Below are positions 8,664-11,621 of a stretch of 55,648 nt of DNA, one piece after another. The notes under the pieces are model-generated. The model had not been told where the DNA came from. It did not search any database and saw only the letters and a program-made list of their open reading frames with translations. Made by a program: the position numbers and the translations under genes. The stretch is from a virus. The DNA is taken from positions 1 through 55,648 of the IMG/VR virus record IMGVR_UViG_3300012532_000003; one strand, 5' to 3'. Position 1 is the stretch's first letter. The number at the start of each line of letters is the position of its first letter.

Positions 8664-11621
8664 ATGTTTTCTCTGTACCCATTCCAGGAAGAAGCGGTCG
8701 ATTTTCTCTGGGACAAGAAGGCGGTTCTTCTAGGGGACGATATGGGCCTCGGAAAGGCCCAGCCATTATCTGAACCAGTACTAACACCAACAGGATGGAC
8801 AGAAATTGGAAAACTAAGTGTTGGTGACTATGTTATTGGATCGAATGGAAAGCCAACTAAGGTCAACGGAGTTTACCTACAAGGAACTAGACCAATATGT
8901 GAAGTTTGGTTTAGTGATGACACTTTTGTTCGTTGCGACATTGACCATTTATGGTCAGTTATTACACCGAACAACAAGCGAAGAGGTAAGCCATATGAAA
9001 CAATCTCAACTAGAGAAATGATAAGGTTAGGACTAAAGAGTTCGTCGGGAAACAATAGGTACTACGTGCCAAATGTTGAACCAGTACAATTCATACAAAG
9101 TGACATTTCACTTGATCCATATTTGGTTGGTGTGTTCATAGGAAACGGTTGTCTATCACACGGTACATACCTATCAACTGACCATGATATTGTGAGTTCG
9201 TTAATAATACCAAACGGCGTGACATTTAGGTTAGAAAAGGATAACGGATACTCTGGCGACTATCGTTTCAGTGGAATAGTAAGACACTTACGTGAACTTG
9301 GGTTAATGAACAAAAAAGCAGAAGAAAAACACATACCAATCCAATACAAGTGGGGAGACATAGAGACTAGATACGCTTGCTTACAGGGAATTCTAGATAC
9401 AGATGGAAGTATAGTAAAAAGTAGAGGTAAACCAGCCACAACGGTAGAGTATAGCACAGTAAGTAAGCAGCTATCCGAGGATGTTGAACACATTGTTAGG
9501 TCATTAGGAGGAAAAAAAGTCACAAAGATTCCAAAGTATAAAGGAGAAACGAGAACAGGTCAACTGTTTTACCGAATGACATTAAGCTTACCAACACCAT
9601 TTGTACCATTCCGACTTAAACGCAAGTTGGACAACTGGATCCATAGATCGAAATATGAACCAGTTCGAGCCATTAAAGCCATTCAGTACATCGGTTATGA
9701 ACCATGCGTTTGCATTTCAGTTGAAGCTAATGACTGCCTATATGTTACAAGAAGCTTTACGCTAACCCACAACACAGTGACCGCCATTGCCCTTGATCGT
9801 AGAAGACGAGAAAAACAACCGAACCTAGTTGAAAAGCCAAAAACGTTAGTTGTTACCTACCTTGGCATTTTCTCCTCCTGGCTGAGCCACTTCGAAGACT
9901 GGGCGCCGGATCTCCGGGTCATGGCCATCAACAGCAAGGACCGAACGCCGTTCTTGGAGTCCATAAAGAACAACGAAGCGGATGTTTTCGTCTGTCACTG
10001 GCAGTCGTTACGGTTGCTCCCAGAGTTGGTTAACACAACGTGGTTCCATATTATTGCAGACGAATGCGTTATAGCCGGAACAAGAATAAGCACACCCAAA
10101 GGTTTACAAAATATCGAGGATTTGCAAAACGACGATGTTGTTTACGGATATGATCATAAACAGCAAAAAGTTGTTGAAACAACTGTGAAACACACGTTCA
10201 GCAGAACTACAAGATCACAACTTTTCAAGATAAATAGTACTGTTATGACTGGTAACCATCCAGTTTGGACCAACGAATCGAACTACATCAATGCTTCGGC
10301 ACTGAACAGCATGGAGCACACGCTGTTAAGATTGACAAATGGAAACAGTGACGTTGACTTGCGAATTGTGCCTGAACCAATTTCATTACATGATAGACAT
10401 AGCAAACCAGGAATTGAAAATAGCAATAGAAGTAGATGGTTCGGCACACCTTTTGACGAGCAGGAAACAAATAGACCAAGAGAAGGACAAATATTTAATC
10501 TCCAACGGATGGACAGTGTTTCGATTCACGAACCTCGAAGTTATGACAAACCCAAAGTTATGCGCACAGAAGGTATTCGAGTATATAACATCGAGACGGG
10601 AACAGGAAACTATTTCGCCAACGGAATTCTAGTGCACAATTGCCATGCACTACAAAACAGGAAGTCAAAACAAAGTGTAGCACTTAAATTACTCAAGACC
10701 TGTTTCAAAACTGGACTGTCCGGAACGCCGGCCTTCGACAAGCCGGACGACCTCTGGAGCATTCTTAACTGGCTGTACCCGGACTTCTGGTCGTCGTACT
10801 GGCGTTATTACAACCGCCACATTTTGTACGTTGAGAACAGCGGGTACCGAGTAATCGTCGGCGTGAGCCACGCCAAAGAGCTGCAAGAACAAATGAGCGG
10901 CTTCTACGTTCGTCGCCGCAAAGAGGAAGTGCTCAAAGAGCTACCCGACAAGTACTACAGTACAATTGAGGTAGACCTACACCCAAGACAGATGCGCGTT
11001 TACGAACAGATGCGCAAAGACATGATAGCTTGGGTGGGCGAGCATGAAGATGAGCCGGTTGACGCTCCGGTTATTATTGCACAGCTCACCAGGCTGCAAC
11101 AGTTTGCCAGCGCGTACGGCGAGATCGATCAGGAAACGAACCGGATGGTGCTCTCTGAGCCATCGGCAAAACTCACTGCCGTTATGGATCTCATTGAGTC
11201 CACCGATGAGCCAGTCGTTATCTTCAGTCAATTTGCTCAGGTCATTCGCCTTTTGCAAAAGAGGCTTGAAAAAGCCAGTATATCTCATGGCATCTTCATT
11301 GGCGATACCTCACCAGAAAAACGTTCCAGAATCATTGAAGACTTTCAGAATCAAAAAATTCAGGTGTTTGCCGGGACCATCAGCGCTGGCGGCATTGGTA
11401 TTACTCTTACCGCCTCCTCAACCGTGGTGTTCACTGACAGATCCTGGTCGGCTAGCCTTAACCGGCAGGCTGCCGACAGGCTCCACAGGGTGGGGCAGAA
11501 GAACGCGGTGCATGTGATTGACATCATTGCCAGAGACACCATTGATGCTAAACGAATCGAACACATCAACCTGAAGTGGAGCTGGATTCGCGAGCTGCTT
11601 GGCGAGGAAGACTACGACTGA
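8664..11621 (+). CDS. SNF2-family DEAH helicase with two inteins
   Basis: 985 residues of precursor; removal of the 339- and 192-residue inteins leaves about 454 residues of helicase. Motifs in the exteins: motif I DDMGLGK|T split by intein 1; motif II DE|CH split by intein 2; SGTPAF; VVIFSQFAQVIRLL; ISAGGIGITLTAS; RQAADRLHRVGQ (motif VI). This is the SNF2/Rad54-like superfamily 2 ATPase found in many phages, probably translocating on DNA during replication or recombination. No ATP hydrolysis is expected before both splicing events, since both ATP-site motifs are interrupted. Intein DNA is visibly AT-richer than the exteins. The 8605-8661 leader likely controls translation. It is followed by a small secreted-protein gene 12 bases on. 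Confidence 0.93.
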   Translation: MFSLYPFQEEAVDFLWDKKAVLLGDDMGLGKAQPLSEPVLTPTGWTEIGKLSVGDYVIGSNGKPTKVNGVYLQGTRPICEVWFSDDTFVRCDIDHLWSVITPNNKRRGKPYETISTREMIRLGLKSSSGNNRYYVPNVEPVQFIQSDISLDPYLVGVFIGNGCLSHGTYLSTDHDIVSSLIIPNGVTFRLEKDNGYSGDYRFSGIVRHLRELGLMNKKAEEKHIPIQYKWGDIETRYACLQGILDTDGSIVKSRGKPATTVEYSTVSKQLSEDVEHIVRSLGGKKVTKIPKYKGETRTGQLFYRMTLSLPTPFVPFRLKRKLDNWIHRSKYEPVRAIKAIQYIGYEPCVCISVEANDCLYVTRSFTLTHNTVTAIALDRRRREKQPNLVEKPKTLVVTYLGIFSSWLSHFEDWAPDLRVMAINSKDRTPFLESIKNNEADVFVCHWQSLRLLPELVNTTWFHIIADECVIAGTRISTPKGLQNIEDLQNDDVVYGYDHKQQKVVETTVKHTFSRTTRSQLFKINSTVMTGNHPVWTNESNYINASALNSMEHTLLRLTNGNSDVDLRIVPEPISLHDRHSKPGIENSNRSRWFGTPFDEQETNRPREGQIFNLQRMDSVSIHEPRSYDKPKVMRTEGIRVYNIETGTGNYFANGILVHNCHALQNRKSKQSVALKLLKTCFKTGLSGTPAFDKPDDLWSILNWLYPDFWSSYWRYYNRHILYVENSGYRVIVGVSHAKELQEQMSGFYVRRRKEEVLKELPDKYYSTIEVDLHPRQMRVYEQMRKDMIAWVGEHEDEPVDAPVIIAQLTRLQQFASAYGEIDQETNRMVLSEPSAKLTAVMDLIESTDEPVVIFSQFAQVIRLLQKRLEKASISHGIFIGDTSPEKRSRIIEDFQNQKIQVFAGTISAGGIGITLTASSTVVFTDRSWSASLNRQAADRLHRVGQKNAVHVIDIIARDTIDAKRIEHINLKWSWIRELLGEEDYD
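8757..9773 (+). mobile_element. class 3 (WCT) intein in helicase motif I, LAGLIDADG type
   Basis: 339 residues between GLGK and T of the Walker A motif. The first residue is Ala, not Cys or Ser. The C-terminus is LTHN followed by Thr. The class 3 signature is complete: Trp two residues after the block B His (DHLW), Cys in block F (EPCVCISVE) and Thr before the final HN. In class 3 inteins the block F Cys starts splicing. Two LAGLIDADG-like motifs, LVGVFIGNGC and LQGILDTDGS, indicate a homing endonuclease. Class 3 inteins are known from phage and SNF2-type hosts. Strongly AT-rich compared with flanks. Confidence 0.9.
10065..10640 (+). mobile_element. intein in helicase DEAH box (192 residues)
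   Basis: Starts at Cys of CVIAGTRISTPKGLQNIEDL right after the D-E of motif II, and ends GILVHN before the Cys of CHAL. The N-terminal block B TGNHPVW and C-terminal blocks F (VYNIETGTGNYF) and G are present, so standard class 1 splicing is expected. Between them the in-frame sequence is low-similarity (NRSRWFGTPFDEQETNRPRE), while the same DNA in another frame encodes a Vsr-like nuclease (10339-10632). The splicing frame contains no stop. Confidence 0.88.
10339..10632 (+). pseudogene. out-of-frame Vsr/EDxHD-type homing endonuclease within intein 2
   Basis: 97 residues read in the +1 frame relative to the intein. Key motif: IAIEVDGSAH with a downstream ID (the E-x-D...H...D set of EDxHD/Vsr-like nucleases), then KDKYLISNGWTVFRFTNLEV, the typical Vsr/DUF559 core. 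This family is known as a homing endonuclease type in phages and inteins. No clear ribosome binding site precedes its ATG. It is either a nuclease domain put out of frame by two compensating indels or a true overprinted gene. Recognition of the fold is firm; whether it is expressed is not. Confidence 0.75.

Follow-up and report, generated by a model that had tools for sequence, protein, structure and literature searches.

A helicase motif II intein with an EDxHD/Vsr-like nuclease in its +1 frame: a truncated viral copy of what is very probably a widespread overprinted class

Bifunctional inteins carry a LAGLIDADG or HNH endonuclease domain in frame, as part of the spliced protein. Fractured genes, attributed to Dassa et al. 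in 2009, are reportedly inteins split in two, between whose halves lies a free-standing Vsr-like (EDxHD) endonuclease. The phage enzyme I-Bth0305I (3R3P) is an intron-encoded EDxHD endonuclease (reviewed in PMC3943268). In the ShiLan insertion of a mycobacteriophage methylase, an HNH endonuclease is hidden out of frame (Arsenault et al. 2025, PMC11855218); its authors report no splicing motifs and regard the insertion as neither an intein nor an intron (PMC11855218). Here, we analysed a viral stretch of 55,648 nucleotides (the window; one strand, positions 1–55,648 of IMG/VR record IMGVR_UViG_3300012532_000003), in which a helicase gene is interrupted by two inteins, the second of which contains a nuclease core in its +1 frame. 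Very probably, this copy belongs, in truncated form, to a widespread class of motif II inteins, in which an EDxHD/Vsr-like nuclease is overprinted at +1 and has a separate internal start. A survey of the open-access literature (subscription papers were outside its scope) yielded no description of an out-of-frame nuclease in a true, unbroken intein, and the layout is apparently undescribed.

Two reading frames in intein 2

The features considered here are as follows; all lie on the + strand.
8664–11621: host gene, an SNF2/DEAH-type superfamily 2 (SF2) helicase with two inteins, 985 codons (open reading frame (ORF), domain matches, intein-free relatives)
10065–10640: intein 2, 192 amino acids (aa), splicing frame, inserted between DE and CH of helicase motif II (Walker B) (splicing residues, Hint_2 and intein_Cterm matches, HINT model, empty sites in relatives L170 and L171)
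10065–10334: N-terminal splicing domain, residues 1–90 (predicted local distance difference test (pLDDT) 89–98; N-intein profile match 10065–10346)
10335–10493: intein-frame linker, residues 91–143, which is nuclease DNA read out of frame (pLDDT about 50 over residues 91–140)
10494–10640: C-terminal splicing domain, residues 144–192 (C-intein profile match 10467–10643; strands E144–148 to E188–191)
10339–10632: out-of-frame (+1) nuclease ORF, 97 aa (ATG at 10339, TAG at 10630–10632; DUF559 E=4e-13; family profile 82 bits)
10372–10383: junction of an internal deletion, net 387 nucleotides (nt) relative to the intact relative L173, joining a CELC stub to the HYMIDIA core (alignment with L173)
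10384–10530: EDxHD/Vsr-like catalytic core in the +1 frame, HYMID..IEVDGSAH..DQEKDKYL..GWTVFRFTN (invariant family residues kept)
10494–10632: segment with structured domains in both frames, namely the nuclease C-terminus (GW..FRF..helix) and the C-splicing domain (block F, VYNIET) (ORF coordinates, intein model, divergence of the equivalent segment in relatives)

The splicing frame is free of stops throughout 8664–11621, with Pfam matches to SNF2-rel_dom (3.5e-26) and Helicase_C (7e-15) in the host protein and to Hint_2 (1.1e-6) and intein_Cterm (9.3e-6) over intein 2. The intein runs from C1 at 10065 to N192 at 10638–10640 and is followed by Cys+1 at 10641, in agreement with the coordinates of the original prediction; T62-x-x-H65 and H191–N192 are also present. 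In the family alignment (A6), C1, T62, H65 and N192 are invariant and H191 nearly so. The structure model adopts a HINT fold (pLDDT 80.7), with residues 1–90 and the part from about residue 144 mostly confident, and its top Foldseek matches are inteins and intein-like domains, including the NrdJ-1, DnaB and RecA inteins. Two intein-free helicase relatives (L170 and L171; 47–48% identity over the C-terminal part) have an empty site at the position of intein 2. These residues of blocks A, B, F and G, the HINT fold and the empty alleles are the features of a class 1 cis-splicing intein, as which intein 2 can be classified by sequence and predicted fold.

The +1 frame of the same DNA encodes the Vsr/EDxHD nuclease that the original prediction had placed there. 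The 97-aa ORF aligns with 3HRL by sequence, and its core retains the residues D5, E16, D18, G19, H22, D31, L38, W43, R47 and N50, which are invariant in an alignment that includes the window (A2); in alignment A5, the nuclease residues D, E, D, G, H, D, W, R and N are likewise invariant. The splicing frame was also correctly described as open and devoid of nuclease, since the Hint and intein domains lie in frame and the nuclease signal occurs only at +1. Taken by itself, the window gives a probability of 0.035 that the +1 frame is stop-free given the intein residues, and of 0.042 that the intein frame is stop-free given the nuclease residues. This amounts to modest evidence against chance openness, and the homologues are decisive.

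Homologues, frame offset and selection

A tblastn search of phage genomes returned 42 records. In the eight phage loci fetched (L002–L009; Vibrio, Pseudomonas MR14 and Corynebacterium phi673), the nuclease lies at +1 to the helicase coding sequence and spans about 200–256 aa; the annotation draws the helicase through the intein and leaves the overprinted nuclease unannotated in all eight. Viral contigs searched with the window nuclease or intein singly gave no match, alignments being required, and a plasmid search returned ordinary DUF559 proteins only. Alignment A1 was used to gather 80 viral and 80 genome loci, to which 80 more viral loci, on partly overlapping contigs, were added later, and the offset was called from three independent profiles, one for each splicing part (N and C) and one for the nuclease.

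In the first set, the nuclease is at +1 to both splicing halves in 112/112 loci, 110 of them without a splicing-frame stop, and four additional loci showing one intein half only have the same offset; in the second, this applies to all 77 loci with both halves, 76 of which lack a stop. Merged, the sets comprise 184 loci with both halves, representing 130 distinct inteins and 123 clusters at 90% aa identity. An unbroken splicing frame with a homologous +1 nuclease, mostly of about 180–260 aa, was found at 181 of the 184 loci (128 distinct inteins), and the splicing frame is split in the other three (two distinct sequences). Viral or phage sequences account for 110 members; bacterial contigs are assigned to Chloroflexota, Verrucomicrobiota, Bacillota, Myxococcota, Acidobacteriota, Pseudomonadota, Bacteroidota, Campylobacterota, Actinomycetota, Chlorobiota and Planctomycetota. 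Insertion falls between DE and C of helicase motif II in nearly all loci and slightly further on in a few. It is precise where empty alleles are available, as in L170/L171 and in L252/L254 compared with L009. The Vibrio phages 1.024.O and 234P10 carry empty alleles in which 120 base pairs on either side of the site are 88–95% identical, and this pattern of presence and absence fits mobility of the intein.

Divergence was measured in 14 independent pairs, percentages being derived from substitution counts. Across the nuclease region, differences at nuclease codon positions 1/2/3 number 356/294/845 (2361 codons, 21.1% of sites), and those in the N-splicing domain at intein codon positions 1/2/3 number 240/165/480 (1170 codons, 25.2%). 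Where the nuclease end overlaps the C-splicing domain, the counts are 35/52/70 (493 codons, 10.6%), so that divergence halves where both frames must work, from 21.1% over the remainder of the nuclease to 10.6%. When the codons of 94 nucleases are shuffled synonymously, 773 splicing-frame stops are expected, and none is seen, whereas 1367 stops are present in the third frame, for which 1248 are expected. Conversely, the nuclease frames contain no stop against 329 expected given the intein residues. A T at nuclease position 3 before AA, AG or GA, which creates a splicing-frame stop, occurs at 20 of 7283 junctions, compared with 24% elsewhere; all 20 belong to the split loci L042 and L101, where the splicing frame is released and stop avoidance has disappeared. 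Overprinting is under selection, purifying on the nuclease frame and with complete stop avoidance in the splicing frame.

These data bear directly on the two explanations that had been offered for the layout. According to the first, compensating indels, whether real or sequencing errors, moved an in-frame nuclease out of frame and restored the splicing frame, a reading with which the window alone is compatible, given that both frames are open and the nuclease signal is confined to +1. We give it practically no credence: the same +1 offset recurs at 184 loci, finished phage genomes included; splicing-frame stops are absent against 773 expected; and the orthologous helicase of L173 carries a full-length nuclease at +1. 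The comparison with homologous inteins that had been proposed as a check found no nuclease in the splicing frame of any homologue, and because the homologues share the exact +1 frame, the indel reading is refuted. The second explanation, an intein carrying an overprinted nuclease gene, gains strong support at the family level from the uniform offset.

The nuclease itself was assigned from the L173 protein and the family profile. The full-length L173 model (pLDDT 88) has its best Foldseek matches to 3HRL, an endonuclease-like protein (E 2e-3), and to 3R3P, the I-Bth0305I catalytic domain (E 8e-3), each with a probability of 1.00. A profile of nuclease relatives matches 3HRL at 1.7e-11 and I-Bth0305I (3R3P) weakly at 0.047, and the nuclease matches Pfam DUF559 at 2e-13. 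The family nuclease, which has the catalytic core motifs D..E-x-D..H..D and GW.V.RF.N, is accordingly classed as EDxHD/Vsr-like, with a DUF559 core and a predicted restriction-endonuclease-like fold, the fold being taken from the L173 model.

Expression, truncation and split relatives

In the phage loci, a nuclease start lies directly after the N-splicing domain and just ahead of the first CxxC. A Shine–Dalgarno motif of at least four bases precedes the start at 67 of 93 loci, compared with 47.6 ± 3.5 (maximum 57) in intein-frame synonymous shuffles; an example is aaaggaggtatataaATG in L096, and several phages spell the motif with the intein codons GAY-GAG-GTN (Asp-Glu-Val). This arrangement suggests that the nuclease is made by internal initiation. 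Programmed ribosomal frameshifting from the intein frame would instead produce an N-intein–nuclease fusion. In its favour, some relatives have an open +1 frame that reaches well back into the N-domain (343 codons in L057, 475 in L114), but the position of the start codon, the excess of Shine–Dalgarno motifs and the +1-frame stops shortly upstream of the start region in L002–L004, L007 and L009 make this route quite unlikely. The L114 locus (L114:3166–4668) is in itself a very long intein of 500 aa, whose open +1 frame contains several CxxC zinc-finger-like repeats ahead of the nuclease core.

We therefore favour a model of two products from one stretch of DNA. Frame 0 would yield the helicase with its intein, which would excise itself, and the frame-0 residues over the nuclease would serve as a hydrophilic linker only; this linker is slightly more hydrophilic than in nuclease-synonymous shuffles (hydropathy −1.08 against −1.01, n=126), a small effect. 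The +1 frame would yield a separate nuclease from its own start just past the N-splicing domain, and in intact relatives this enzyme would cut intein-free helicase alleles and thereby drive homing. Several points weigh against this reading. The Shine–Dalgarno excess is moderate and the starts were picked optimistically, although the shuffles were scored alike; the window copy has no Shine–Dalgarno motif and L173 no strong one. Foldseek E-values of only 2e-3 and 8e-3 mean that the fold assignment needs sequence and fold together. Finally, because the loci were collected through their resemblance to the overprinted nucleases found first, in-frame members of a more distant branch could have been missed.

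The window copy departs from the intact layout by a deletion. Its sister is L173, a viral contig with the same helicase (paired in the tree with a Shimodaira–Hasegawa-like approximate likelihood ratio test (SH-aLRT) value of 99), in which the intein has 321 aa and the nuclease frame 227 codons, against 192 and 97 in the window. Relative to L173, the window nuclease keeps METVTLTCELC and then jumps to the core HYMIDIANQELKIAIEVDGSAH. The net loss of 387 nt is a multiple of three, and both frames therefore survive it. About 129 codons are missing. The loss took in the first catalytic helix, which carries the conserved E/Q, and the greater part of the zinc-binding region; both are present in L173 and other relatives. 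With the helix and the N-terminal DNA-binding region absent, the window is filed as a truncated relative rather than an intact member. The original description is corrected in two respects: the window nuclease is truncated instead of complete, and over its final 46 codons it shares DNA with the C-terminal splicing domain itself and not only with a spacer. A shortened copy also occurs in a Planctomycetota bin (L115:3652–4251), where a 200-aa intein has a CxxC stub joined to the core, 91 aa from the ATG, and was shortened independently of the window.

In the core ahead of the GW motif, the window and L173 differ at 9/9/22 nuclease codon positions 1/2/3, a comparison with one sister whose bias could come from the L173 branch alone. 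Probably, the window copy has lost the ability to home and is maintained chiefly for splicing, and the window and L115 are read as a degenerate stage of the homing cycle. The proposal that selection acts for splicing only thus fails for the family, in which both frames are selected, but may still describe the window copy with its loss of about 129 codons. Two other readings of the short ORF deserve consideration. It might be a functional mini-nuclease, formed by the zinc stub and the core and perhaps directed at another target or acting as a dimer; L115 reached the same plan separately and the invariant core residues are retained, but the conserved E/Q helix and most of the DNA-binding region are gone, and two short copies among about 130 distinct inteins suggest no persistence, so that we hold this unlikely. 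It might also be a chance overlap or dead relic, with the intein frame alone selected. The truncation, which took away the first catalytic helix together with the larger part of the zinc region, and the missing Shine–Dalgarno motif would suit a relic in the window; nonetheless, the third-position bias of nuclease codons and the full-length nuclease frames with no stop against 329 expected contradict it for the family, and the 9/9/22 bias (subject to the same reservation about L173) and the intact set of invariant core residues speak against it in the window, leaving this the less probable of the two.

Two groups of relatives carry the nuclease outside an unbroken intein. At L042/L223 (one viral contig; L042:3373–5340) and L101 (a Flavobacteriaceae metagenome bin; L101:3406–5697), the helicase with the N-splicing part runs to a stop and is followed by the nuclease in the same +1 frame, while a second ORF, which has possible starts of its own, encodes the C-splicing part and overlaps the end of the nuclease. 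By gene order, this is the fractured-gene layout. The window has no stop between its halves, as is the case in 181/184 loci, and only L042/L223 and L101 are split. L042 and L101 group together inside the family in the tree, the backbone of which is mostly unsupported and does not order the overprinted and split layouts. A free-standing nuclease relative without an intein (L212:3566–4195), also inside the family, immediately precedes the 5′ portion of an SF2 helicase gene in a phage. Stops gained in the splicing frame could turn an overprinted element into a fractured gene, the frame and start of the nuclease being already in place, as in L042 and L101. Tentatively, and at somewhat less than even chances, we propose that overprinting, alongside in-frame fusion and split genes, is a third stable arrangement by which inteins carry their homing endonuclease, and that at least some fractured genes evolved from it.

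The first intein of the helicase (intein 1, 8757–9773, 339 aa) is inserted between GLGK and T of Walker A and has a LAGLIDADG-type region in frame. Its first residue is Ala instead of Cys or Ser, and W in DIDHLW, C in EPCVCIS and T in TLTHN resemble the WCT set of class 3 inteins.

Comparison with known systems

The family keeps two unrelated proteins in one stretch of DNA across more than 120 distinct inteins, including a segment structured in both frames, and thus offers a large natural data set for the evolution of overlapping genes. Annotation misses these nucleases, none being annotated in the eight phage loci. Whereas intein and nuclease are usually viewed as one two-part protein, here the nuclease is separated from the splicing protein without a gene split, and how split inteins with free-standing nucleases arose becomes a testable question.

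As in bifunctional inteins, the nuclease region lies between splicing blocks B and F; unlike in those, it encodes another protein, in the +1 frame at all loci. The ShiLan insertion shares a homing-type nuclease in another frame, a stop-free host frame and a mobile distribution, but the present elements have the full intein motifs (blocks A, B, F and G), an EDxHD/DUF559 instead of an HNH nuclease, a helicase host and many more members. I-Bth0305I has the same catalytic fold (Foldseek probability 1.00), the same core motif and likewise a separate DNA-binding region, yet it is intron-encoded and not overprinted, and its sequence profile match reaches only E=0.047. Fractured genes have a nuclease of the same superfamily between the N- and C-splicing parts, and L042 and L101 are split in this manner with the nuclease at +1; the other members differ in having one unbroken splicing frame, predicted to splice in cis rather than in trans, over which the nuclease is overprinted.
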